Below are positions 3,885 through 7,363 of a stretch of DNA of 34,775 nucleotides, in pieces. Where the stretch lies: contig WFTL01000110.1 of assembly GCA_015485495.1 (NCBI GenBank), positions 1 through 34,775 on the forward strand, written 5' to 3'. The position numbers were made by a program, and so were the translations under genes. The stretch's first letter is position 1. Every line of letters begins with the position of its first letter. Source of the DNA: Planctomycetaceae bacterium (lineage in GTDB: Bacteria > Planctomycetota > Planctomycetia > Planctomycetales > Planctomycetaceae). The notes beneath the pieces were generated by a model, which worked only from the letters and a program-made list of their open reading frames with translations, made no database searches and was not told where the DNA came from.

Positions 3885-6011
3885 TCAGAATCCGACATCT
3901 TCGTCATCGTCGTCGGTGCCTCCCTGAGCGAGGACGGCCTTGCGGGACAGTTTGACGCGGTTCTGGTCATCCACGGCGATGACCTTCACATCCATGACAT
4001 CGCCGATGCTGCACACGTCGTTGACGTTCTTGACGAATCCGTCGGACAGTTCGCTGATATGGCACAGTCCGTCCTTGCCGGGAGCGATCTCAATGAAGGC
4101 TCCAAAATCCTTGATCGACGTGACGCGGCCGTTGTACACCCGTCCGACCTGGATTTCTTCGGTGAGCGCTTCGACCCGGGCCAGCGCTGCATCGGCGGCG
4201 GCCGCATTGTCGCCTGAGATCGTGACTGTTCCGTCTTCGGCGATGTCGATCTGCGCACCGGTTTCTTCCTGGATGGCACGAATCGTTTTGCCGCCCGGAC
4301 CGATCAGCAGGCCGATCTTTTCGGGGTTGATCGAGGTCTGGACCAGTCGCGGCGCGGTGGCGGAAATCTCCGGACGGGGCCGGCGAATCGTTCGCAGCAT
4401 CGTTTTCAGAAGGGATTTCCGGGCGATCAGAGCCTGCTGAAGCGTTTCCCGGATGATCTGTTCGCTGATCCCGTCGTTTTTCAGGTCGAGCTGAATTCCG
4501 GTGACGCCGCGTCCTGTCCCGGCCACCTTGAAGTCCATTTCACCGAAATGGTCTTCGTCTCCCATGATGTCGGTGAGCAGAATATGTCGGTCGCCGTCCT
4601 GGACCAGTCCGATGGAGATTCCGGCCACCGGCTGACGGATGGGGACTCCGGCATCCATCAGCGACAGCGTCGCACTGCAGACCGATGCCATGGAACTGCT
4701 GCCGTTCGATTCGAGAATGTCGGAAATCACGCGAATCGTGTAGGGGAATTTTTCTTCTGCCGGAATCACGGGCTGCAGGGATCGCTGCGCCAGGCAGCCG
4801 TGACCGATTTCCCGGCGTCCGGGGCCGCGGATCGGCCGGCATTCCCCGACGGAAAACGATGGGAAGTAATAATGCAGCATGAACCGATCGGACGTTTCTC
4901 CGAACAGACTGTCGCTGCGCTGCTGATCGCGTGTCGTGCCCAGGGCCACGGTGGCCAGAGACTGCGTTTCGCCTCGTGTGAACACGGCCGAACCGTGCAC
5001 CTTTGGAATTCGGGACACTTCGCAGCTCACCGGACGCAGTTCATCGGGAGCCCGCCCGTCGAGTCGCTGGCCGTTCAGAAGAAGATCGCGGACAACCTTC
5101 GCTTCCAGATGATAGAACGCGTCGCCGAACTGAGCCCGCGTGAGTCCGTCACTTGTTTCTTCGGCGTCATCAGGAAAGTATTTTTCCAGCAGTTCGGCCC
5201 GCAGCGCCCGGACCGCTTCGGCTCGTTCGGCCTTCTGGCCGGCCGTCTTGGCCTGCCGGAGCGCATCCCAGGCTTCTTTCTCAAGCAGGGCATCGAACGG
5301 GTTTTCCGGCGGTGGTTCCGGTTCCGGACGTTCGATACCGCGCTGACGGACCAGTTCGTCCTGGAGTTCGCACAGGGTGCGGACATGTTCGTGGCCGAAC
5401 ATGATGGCATCGGCCATTTCTTCTTCGGGGAGCTGATCGGCGAATCCTTCGATCATCAGCACGGCCTCTTTGGAACCGGCCACGATCAGGTCCAGACTGC
5501 TTGCCGCCTGCTGCTGCACGGTCGGCATGAGAATCAGTTCGCCGTCGATCAGTCCGACCCGCACGGCGGCGATCGGACCGCGAAACGGCATGCCGGAAAC
5601 CATCAAAGCCGCACTGGCCCCGGTGATGCTCAGCACGTCCGGATCGTTTTCTCCGTCCACGGACATCACGTTCGACATCACCTGGACTTCGTCGCGAAAT
5701 CCGTCGGGGAACAGAGGCCGGATGGGCCGGTCCGTCAGGCGGCAGGTGAGGATTTCCCGGGTGGTCGGACGGCCTTCCCGTTTCAGATACCCGCCCGCAA
5801 ACTTTCCGGCGGCTGCGAACCGTTCCCGGTAATCCACCGTCAGCGGAAAGAAGTTCGTTCCTGGCCGCGACGGGCCTGTCTGAGCGGCCACAAAAACGCT
5901 CGTTTCCCCAAACTGAATCATCACAGCTCCGCTGGCCTGTCTGGCCAGCTGGCCGGAGTTCAGTGAGAGCGTTCGTCCTCCGAATTCACAGTCGACAGTG
6001 ACACTTTTCAC
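3885..6011 (-). CDS. pnp: polyribonucleotide nucleotidyltransferase (PNPase)
   Basis: Phosphorolytic 3'-5' exoribonuclease of mRNA decay; 708 residues, full length for the family. Domains in order: RNase PH-like 1 (about 12-145, with PLTVDYRERFAAAGKFAGGY and LTDRPIRPLFP), an all-helical linker with a Pro/Glu- and Lys/Arg-rich stretch (about 150-310), RNase PH-like 2 (about 320-480, catalytic segment LLTDIMGDEDHFGEMDFKVA), KH domain (GPGGKTIRAI near 565-575) and S1 domain (RVYNGRVTSIKDFGAFIEI, about 620-690). It ends in an acidic tail (DDDDED). The start is GTG at 6009-6011 with AAGGA about 7 nt upstream. It lies downstream of rpsO in the classical rpsO-pnp order and is followed after 3 nt by a histidine kinase gene, an unusual partner. 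Confidence 0.97.
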   Translation of the reverse strand: MKSVTVDCEFGGRTLSLNSGQLARQASGAVMIQFGETSVFVAAQTGPSRPGTNFFPLTVDYRERFAAAGKFAGGYLKREGRPTTREILTCRLTDRPIRPLFPDGFRDEVQVMSNVMSVDGENDPDVLSITGASAALMVSGMPFRGPIAAVRVGLIDGELILMPTVQQQAASSLDLIVAGSKEAVLMIEGFADQLPEEEMADAIMFGHEHVRTLCELQDELVRQRGIERPEPEPPPENPFDALLEKEAWDALRQAKTAGQKAERAEAVRALRAELLEKYFPDDAEETSDGLTRAQFGDAFYHLEAKVVRDLLLNGQRLDGRAPDELRPVSCEVSRIPKVHGSAVFTRGETQSLATVALGTTRDQQRSDSLFGETSDRFMLHYYFPSFSVGECRPIRGPGRREIGHGCLAQRSLQPVIPAEEKFPYTIRVISDILESNGSSSMASVCSATLSLMDAGVPIRQPVAGISIGLVQDGDRHILLTDIMGDEDHFGEMDFKVAGTGRGVTGIQLDLKNDGISEQIIRETLQQALIARKSLLKTMLRTIRRPRPEISATAPRLVQTSINPEKIGLLIGPGGKTIRAIQEETGAQIDIAEDGTVTISGDNAAAADAALARVEALTEEIQVGRVYNGRVTSIKDFGAFIEIAPGKDGLCHISELSDGFVKNVNDVCSIGDVMDVKVIAVDDQNRVKLSRKAVLAQGGTDDDDEDVGF

Positions 6012-6484
6012 GATCAGTTCCTTACCCGGCCCGGCCGGATCAAAGACTGCCTGATCGCAGAACTTCTGTTACACGGTGTGTCGCACGCAAAGCAACTTTA
6101 CGGCATCAGGATCGCAAGCCATGCACCGCTCGGGGGGCATTCAGGACGTGAACGCACACGTCCGGTCCGCAGCATGGTGTTCCGGCAGAAAGCCGCACCG
6201 GCTGAAGCCGTTTCCACTGCGTCAGCAGCAACGCCTGCAATTTCCGACAACTCCAAAGTCGCCCCAGGCGGCGGCACTCCGCGACAGACCTGCGGCAGCA
6301 GTCAGCAACAAAAAAACACAACCTGTTCAGATACCCGTTCCCGGACCAGCAGCCAGGTCGTCATCTGCTGACGACACCCGTCAGGCTGCTGACGGAGTCC
6401 GGAGATTCCCGACCGCACACGCGGTCCGCGAAATCAATGAATCAGGGCGCCGCAGAATTCCTGACAGCCGCGACGCCCCTGTTT
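6012..6484. other. rpsO-pnp intergenic spacer, no gene
   Basis: This 473-nt spacer has short frames on both strands but none with a recognisable domain, so I treat it as non-coding. Read on the minus strand (the transcribed direction of rpsO and pnp), it contains two tandem hairpins at 6357-6395, a run of seven T at 6316-6310, and then the pnp leader with an AAGGA ribosome site. I found no convincing independent pnp promoter, though a weak one cannot be excluded. Confidence 0.6.
6357..6395 (-). promoter_or_regulatory. tandem hairpins in the rpsO-pnp spacer
   Basis: On the minus strand, arm A (CCGTCAG, 6395-6389) pairs perfectly with arm B (CTGACGG, 6384-6378) over a 4-nt loop. Two nucleotides later arm C (GTCGTCA, 6375-6369) pairs perfectly with arm D (TGACGAC, 6363-6357) over a 5-nt loop. 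Arms B and C can instead pair with each other (CTGACG with CGTCAG, 5-nt loop). The first hairpin could act as an rpsO terminator. In E. coli the equivalent spacer carries a terminator and an RNase III-cleaved stem used in PNPase autoregulation. A similar role here is inference. Confidence 0.5.
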
Positions 6485-6754
6485 CTACTTTCGAATTCCC
6501 AGCCGGCCGATAATGTCCAGATACTGTTCCGGAGCCCGGGACTTCAGATAGTCCAGCAGCCGCCGGCGGCGACTGACCATGGCCAGCAGTCCGCGACGGC
6601 TGGAATGGTCCTTCCGGTGAACTTTCAGATGTTCCGTCAGACTCTGAATCTGATGCGTCAGGACAGCAATCTGTACCTGGGGCGATCCCGTATCCGTTTC
6701 GCTTTGCCCGTACTCTTTGATCAGACGCTGTTTGGTTTCTGCTGAAATCGCCAT
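6485..6754 (-). CDS. rpsO: 30S ribosomal protein S15
   Basis: 89 residues, exactly the family length. It binds 16S rRNA early in assembly of the small-subunit platform. The conserved run is easily read: [20 protein letters not shown] near residues 14-33, [18 protein letters not shown] near 38-55, and the closing [28 protein letters not shown]. The ATG at 6752-6754 gives the canonical N terminus [12 protein letters not shown]. Only a weak ribosome site (GGAT) precedes it. It heads the run rpsO-pnp-kinase-regulator-dapF and has a well-formed promoter about 190 nt upstream, leaving a leader long enough for the S15 autoregulation known in other bacteria, though the binding fold cannot be judged by eye. 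Confidence 0.97.
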
Positions 6755-7363
6755 CAGACTGGATCCATCGGTTTCTGCGGGGTGAACGATGGCTCGACTG
6801 TGCGAACCTTCGAGGCCCTGAAACGCAGAAAAGACCGTGTTTTCGAACTGGAGCCGCAGGAAGGAAGATTCCCGGGCCGCCGCACCTGCCTTTTCAGCAG
6901 GCCGCCATTTTGCATCCCATTGCTTTCAGGAATTCGCGGGATTGTATCGCTGATTGCCGGCAGATCAATCCCCATCGGTCGCGATGTCGGTCTTTCTCAC
7001 AGCCGACAGTGGCGGCCGGCAGCCGGAAAGGCGGGTGTCGCGGCGCACGGCGGGCAGCCGGCAGCAGTTCCCGACAGACCGGACATGGTCGACCGCCGGG
7101 ATGAATGCGTTCCTGTCGTTTTCCGAAACAGGGGGCTGGCTGTGGCAGAATCGGTTTTCTGGCGGATTCGACGTTCGTTTTGCAGAGCGGCTTCGCGATG
7201 CGGATGGGACGGGTATGAGAGAGTTCCCGACAGCGGCCGTTCGGCGTTGATTTTGAACTTTCTGAGCGATAGGGTCGGACAGACGGATCCGGGGGACTGC
7301 AGAGGCCTGATGGGGATTTCAGGACGTTTTTCGCCGCAGTTCGATGTGCGTTCTTGAGAGTTC
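6755..7363. other. divergent rpsO / MMPL intergenic region
   Basis: A 609-nt non-coding stretch between divergently transcribed genes. The minus-strand half holds the rpsO promoter (6941-6968) and its leader. Open frames on both strands (for example one spanning 6782-7357) have no recognisable domain and an amino-acid make-up expected of random GC-rich DNA. I could not find a convincing promoter for the MMPL gene and no tRNA-like sequence is visible. Confidence 0.55.
6941..6968 (-). promoter_or_regulatory. sigma-70-type promoter for rpsO
   Basis: On the minus strand a -35 element TTGATC (6968-6963) and a -10 element TACAAT (6946-6941) are separated by 16 nt. Matches are 4/6 and 5/6 to the consensus. 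Transcription would start near 6934, giving a leader of about 180 nt before the rpsO ATG. No competing promoter of equal quality is visible closer to the gene. Confidence 0.55.

Follow-up and report, generated by a model that had tools for sequence, protein, structure and literature searches.

Organization of the rpsO-pnp locus

We analyzed a 34.8-kb stretch of DNA (hereafter the window) from a genome of 4.67 Mb in 180 contigs. Within it, rpsO and pnp are separated by a spacer of 473 nt (6484-6012), which is transcribed as the minus strand because both genes lie on that strand. The features of the locus are listed in Table 1, where block A, block B and hairpin C denote the conserved parts of the spacer that are described below.

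Table 1. Features of the rpsO-pnp locus in the window, in the direction of transcription.
Feature	Position	Strand	Basis or remark
rpsO, ribosomal protein S15	6485..6754	-	Pfam PF00312, E 4.6e-35
Hairpin directly 3′ of rpsO	6444..6479	-	Site of relatives' terminator-like hairpins; poor T tail GATTCATT
Two 7-bp hairpins of the initial annotation (6395-6378 and 6375-6357)	6357..6395	-	Absent from relatives
U7 run	6310..6316	-	Within the stretch preceding block A, which is also G/U-rich in relatives; not preceded by a terminator stem
Block A, conserved RNA-like element, ~75 nt	6232..6306	-	P1′ 6305-6301/6248-6244; P2 6297-6289/6268-6260; apical stem 6282-6279/6274-6271
Block B, conserved TGATGYCGTRAAGTTRCT	6091..6108	-	91-99 nt upstream of the pnp start in 31/31 measurable loci
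Hairpin C, CCGGC-CGG-GCCGG	6026..6038	-	Just upstream of the ribosome-binding site
Likely ribosome-binding site AAGGA	6019..6023	-	7 nt upstream of GTG; sequence, conserved in alignment
pnp, polynucleotide phosphorylase (PNPase) with KH and S1 domains, GTG start	3885..6011	-	Pfam

A loose script, run with no shuffle control, called a terminator-like hairpin directly 3′ of rpsO in 29 of 32 loci (none was called in L007, L017 and L027, and L033 was left out as it has no rpsO). In the window, the tail of this hairpin at 6443-6436 (GATTCATT) is poor in T, whereas many relatives have T-rich tails; poor tails were seen in some of the loci, the window included. A stricter terminator scan of positions 5900-6900 returned no terminator-like site, the rpsO hairpin included, and a promoter search of the same interval found none, with no sigma-70-type promoter. 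In addition, no position in the 80 nt upstream of block A was occupied by one base in at least 75% of 33 aligned sequences. These 80 nt are G/U-rich, with mean T and G fractions of 0.39 and 0.31, respectively, in the 33 sequences.

The hairpin pair between rpsO and block A

The initial annotation described an attenuator-like fold in the spacer, and its elements are present as described. Specifically, the two perfect 7-bp hairpins, 2 nt apart, are exact on the minus (coding) strand (CCGTCAG-CAGC-CTGACGG for hairpin 1 and GTCGTCA-GCAGA-TGACGAC for hairpin 2), and both contain the direct repeat CGTCAGCAG on that strand. The second arm of hairpin 1 can alternatively pair with the first arm of hairpin 2 over 6 bp, the U7 run is found on the minus strand, and the weak ACCTG/CAGGT stem exists with a loop of 28 nt. 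When the spacer was shuffled 2000 times with dinucleotides preserved, 17.1% of the shuffles contained one or more perfect 7-bp hairpins and 3.9% two or more, and two within 5 nt of each other occurred in 0/2000. The window as a whole contains 40 perfect 7-bp hairpins (loop 3-8) versus 15-25 in five dinucleotide shuffles, indicating that the region is generally hairpin-rich, and the pair at 6395-6357 is the sole adjacent pair among them.

We then compared the predicted folds of this region. The calculated energies were -11.1 kcal/mol for hairpin 1, -10.0 kcal/mol for hairpin 2 and -21.1 kcal/mol for both, versus -7.7 kcal/mol for the alternative pairing, and the idea of two comparably stable, mutually exclusive folds was therefore rejected. 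Predicted folds vary with the fragment chosen. In a 100-nt piece (6400-6301), the arm of hairpin 2 was taken up by pairing with the 5′ end of block A, which left hairpin 2 almost unformed (mean pair probability 0.0001); in this fragment the ACCTG/CAGGT stem was nearly always present (0.997). A stem directly before the U run was likewise rejected, since the stem nearest to it is the one with the 28-nt loop and the scan had found no terminator-like site.

All 32 relatives examined, the two congeners among them, lack the hairpin pair, and only the window has CGTCAGCAG twice. The initial annotation had looked to compensatory changes in related species as the sequence sign of its four-arm fold, and the relatives show none. 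The spacer upstream of block A aligns poorly even within the genus, with the exception of the rpsO-adjacent hairpin, and the congeners carry other, imperfect stem-loops in the stretch before block A. The paired hairpins seem to have formed recently and to be private to this genome, as a cluster of stem-loops in the rapidly changing stretch that separates the rpsO hairpin from block A; in the window they stand just 3′ of the poor-tailed rpsO hairpin. That they switch between two folds and thereby decide termination at U7 is highly improbable: the hairpins are exact and beyond chance, and a stem before U7 is strongly predicted in one fragment, but all 32 relatives lack the hairpins, the alternative fold is about 13 kcal/mol weaker, and a terminator-like site was not found in 5900-6900. 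On the other hand, the broader suggestion that pnp is controlled from this spacer probably stands; it is the place and the mechanism that were wrong. The conserved, probably regulatory element, block A, begins ~50 nt downstream of the hairpin pair, at 6306.

Distribution, conservation and predicted fold of block A

When the spacer was used as a DNA query, 29 of 170 family genomes gave matches, mostly within 6317-6223, immediately 3′ of the region marked in the initial annotation. A covariance model of block A (R1) detected the element in 33/170 family genomes at E < 1e-14, with one copy each at this cutoff, and the next matches were weak (best E 2e-4). By genus, carriers were 3/3 in g1, 3/4 in g6, 8/8 in g7, 1/1 in g24 and 18/18 in g50; the g6 genome without the element is 66% complete and also gave no pnp match. 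A scan of 397 class genomes gave only weak matches beyond the family carriers (best E 2.2e-4), and five of these that were fetched (L065-L069) had neither rpsO nor pnp in their pieces. A scan with a core pattern of block A matched 31 contigs, 30 of them true, and no viral contig; L122, labelled Actinomycetota, was rejected as a chance match given its diverged flank and the lack of rpsO and pnp in its piece. Note that L108 and L114, which are titled Candidatus Kuenenia stuttgartiensis, contain rpsO, block A and pnp of the Planctomycetaceae type and are probably mislabelled bins.

Among the 33 carrier pieces fetched, block A lies between rpsO and pnp in 31 of the 31 that contain both genes (the piece of L010 stops short of pnp and that of L033 short of rpsO). 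Block A is 140-333 nt away from pnp (32 measurable loci) but 79-1077 nt away from rpsO (32 loci that include rpsO), indicating that it keeps company with pnp. In five loci (L022, L025, L030, L031 and L032), the gap between rpsO and block A is 654-1077 nt, and no convincing reading frame was seen in it by eye. In L033, the place upstream of block A where rpsO is expected is occupied by an open frame of 89 codons, opposite in strand and with no Pfam match.

In a tree of PNPase N-termini, 32 carriers fell on one side of a single branch (support 99/91) and 20 non-carriers on the other; the latter were chosen by us, mostly near the top PNPase score, from 130 non-carriers with a pnp match. In all 20 non-carrier loci, pnp follows rpsO after a spacer of 45-764 nt and block A is missing (best E 1.3 with filters off), indicating that pnp has no general need for block A. 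Spacers in the sister genus g55 are 669-764 nt long and are without block A. In two of the three g55 genomes fetched (G156 and G161; spacers L133 and L135), they share conserved sequence that could fold into a GCGG..CCGC hairpin; this sequence was matched in only 2 of the 170 family genomes.

We next quantified the conservation of block A against that of pnp. Over 496 pairs of 32 sequences, mean identity was 86% for block A and 39% for fourfold sites in the first 200 codons of pnp, and block A exceeded the fourfold sites in every one of the 496 pairs. The window and its congeners agree at only 32-34% of fourfold sites, but at 97-99% of the positions of block A. One congener, G001, is identical to Fuerstiella sp. 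ALOHA_ZT_14 over 180 nt around block A. Against 31 relatives, the window showed 84% identity in block A, 81% in the first 200 amino acid residues of PNPase and 35% at fourfold sites. Block A carries small indels of one to three bases, so that a kept reading frame is excluded; specifically, a 71-aa minus-strand frame cannot survive them.

RNAalifold applied to 33 sequences predicted one interrupted hairpin with no junction. Its basal stem P1′ is mostly UUGAC/GUCGG, P2 is GCC-CAGG/CCUG-GGY, and the apical stem GCGG/CCGC closes a four-base loop, AUUG or AGUG. In 29 distinct sequences, 98.0% of the cells of this consensus are paired, and in 7 of the 17 pairs one partner has changed with pairing retained. 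Variation in P1′ affects all five pairs, always at a single side, and leaves 7/145 cells unpaired; the P1′ cells pair in 138/145 cases when read as sense RNA versus 85/145 as antisense, and the sense fold was more stable than the antisense fold in 24 of 24 distinct sequences. No two-sided compensatory change was found in block A, and pairing was not above that of column shuffles, so the fold is only moderately supported. Stability z-scores ran from +0.54 (the window) to -2.61, with one of eight sequences below -2 and ordinary stability in the other seven. The minimum-energy fold contained 29% of the consensus pairs in the window and two congeners, and 73% on average over 24 sequences. An earlier fold made with 23 sequences was a three-way junction. 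Candidate alternatives to the consensus stems are CUGC/GCAG, GACU/AGUU and GAC/GUC, with 92-97% of their cells paired. Taken together, the interrupted hairpin is the likely, not a proven, fold of block A.

Two further elements lie between block A and the pnp start. The position of block B given in Table 1 leaves aside L010, which ends too early, and L060, where the pattern was misplaced and the alignment shows a variant of block B. Nothing in block B was paired by RNAalifold. Block B was also considered as a possible regulon site. In eight genomes searched (G015-G018, G117, G133, G125 and G002), exact copies were found at pnp only, in six of the eight, and the other two had none; near copies with one or two mismatches numbered 39 over the eight genomes, about double the 17 for a reversed-pattern control. 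Hairpin C has an invariant CCGG/CCGG core (L011 aligns shifted), and at the fifth position 8 of 27 distinct sequences can pair (C-G, A-U or U-A) and the other 19 cannot. One pair of hairpin C has two-sided changes in 2 cells; two slid versions of the hairpin scored higher on covariation, so that the covariation support for hairpin C is weak. Up to 12 pairs can be drawn by eye between blocks A and B, and a switch between them is not supported, the duplex energies being on the whole no better than in controls: shuffled versions of block B paired as well in a fraction of 0.015 (the window) to 0.855 (200 shuffles, 33 sequences), other leader segments did so by duplex energies in a fraction of 0.058 to 0.955, and swaps of partners between species did so in 0.338 of 500.

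Possible functions of the spacer

To place the spacer among known systems, we compared it with the pnp leaders of other bacteria. In E. coli, a Rho-independent terminator follows rpsO, pnp is transcribed from a promoter of its own, and its 5′ UTR contains an RNase III site (PMC2834685); PNPase expression is also subject to feedback by the enzyme itself (PMC3997798). The planctomycete locus shares the order of rpsO and pnp and an arrangement of the E. coli type, with a terminator-like hairpin after rpsO in 29/32 loci followed by conserved blocks A, B and C. However, there is no sequence kinship, and the E. coli leader forms a long duplex, whereas block A is predicted to be an interrupted hairpin with conserved loops; the remark of the initial annotation that the structure in this spacer is unlike that of E. 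coli was thus correct. Another pnp-associated RNA, Actino-pnp (RF01688), is placed before pnp by its name. It is listed as a structured, cis-regulatory RNA of Actinomycetales (PMC2864571). Actinobacteria are, however, a different phylum, and the Rfam covariance model of RF01688 gave no match in the window and nine relatives at the gathering score. When the limit was relaxed to E 10 for the spacer of the window and the leaders of two relatives, RF01688 was again not matched, and only chance-level matches to other Rfam families were returned. Block A thus matches no Rfam family in these scans.

Several roles other than control of pnp in cis by a leader RNA can be weighed for block A. Its very high conservation, in sequence rather than structure, would suit a small RNA that is processed from the rpsO-pnp transcript and acts in trans, or a site targeted by such an RNA; this is unlikely, given that the distance of block A to pnp is bounded and that the interval from block A to the start codon contains the conserved block B and hairpin C. 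Distinctly doubtful, too, is a small-molecule riboswitch aptamer controlling pnp. Conserved loops between short stems are typical of aptamers; block A has this layout, its internal and apical loops being conserved in sequence, and stands upstream of one gene only, but it matched no known riboswitch family, and an expression platform linked to it was not found, the switch between A and B being unsupported.

Conservation that is greater in sequence than in proven structure could also point to an element acting as DNA, that is, a promoter or operator of pnp. This we consider improbable, since P1′ shows a sense-strand bias through G-U pairing, no sigma-70-type promoter was found and 75 nt is long for a single site. 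A further candidate role for block A is that of an S15-binding site, through which pnp would be coupled to S15; rpsO adjoins the spacer. Known S15 sites on mRNA lie in the rpsO leader, whereas block A is downstream of rpsO. The features reported for S15 sites are a three-way junction with a GGC triple and a GU/GC motif one turn away (PMC4684408), and the three-way junction of the 23-sequence fold has the shape of the 16S rRNA site described there. The 33-sequence consensus is, however, an interrupted hairpin with no junction, and a GU/GC motif about 10 bp from the junction was not seen by eye; we therefore hold this coupling to be very improbable. For the S15 comparison, 16S rRNA was searched for in three genomes, with none in G000 and G016 and only part of it in G002.

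The reading that we prefer, with a probability of roughly 0.55, is that the spacer is a pnp leader with block A as an uncatalogued, clade-specific cis-regulatory core, functionally analogous to the leader of E. coli. The spacer would form a long 5′ leader of the pnp mRNA, and its functional core would be block A, a sense-strand RNA of ~75 nt in one clade of the Planctomycetaceae, comprising Fuerstiella, a member of this family, and its relatives; block B and hairpin C, the latter beside the ribosome-binding site, would accompany it in the leader. Judging from the sequence comparison, the simplest function of such a leader is probably cis control of pnp, and block A stands before pnp in 31 of 31 pieces with both genes, the position expected of a cis-regulatory RNA. 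The conserved loops of block A suggest a specific partner that may recognize them in cis, and its binding may alter the translation or decay of the pnp mRNA. By analogy with E. coli, the likeliest partner would be PNPase itself, acting in autogenous control; PNPase as the ligand of block A is a guess.

A search of the literature, as far as the sources were accessible, returned no description of block A, which may nevertheless be identical with the Rhodopirellula-1 motif. More tentatively, and at somewhat less than even odds, block A may represent a regulatory RNA class that is new and missing from Rfam. Such an RNA would bind a single specific partner (PNPase, or a metabolite reporting on RNA turnover), would set PNPase synthesis in Fuerstiella-type planctomycetes and would have arisen independently of the pnp leaders of E. 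coli and actinobacteria. To our knowledge, the control of RNA decay in planctomycetes has been little studied. With higher conservation at the nucleotide level than the beginning of PNPase has at the amino acid level, block A offers a sharp target for the question of leader control, and it raises the question of whether such control of pnp has evolved more than once, in different forms.
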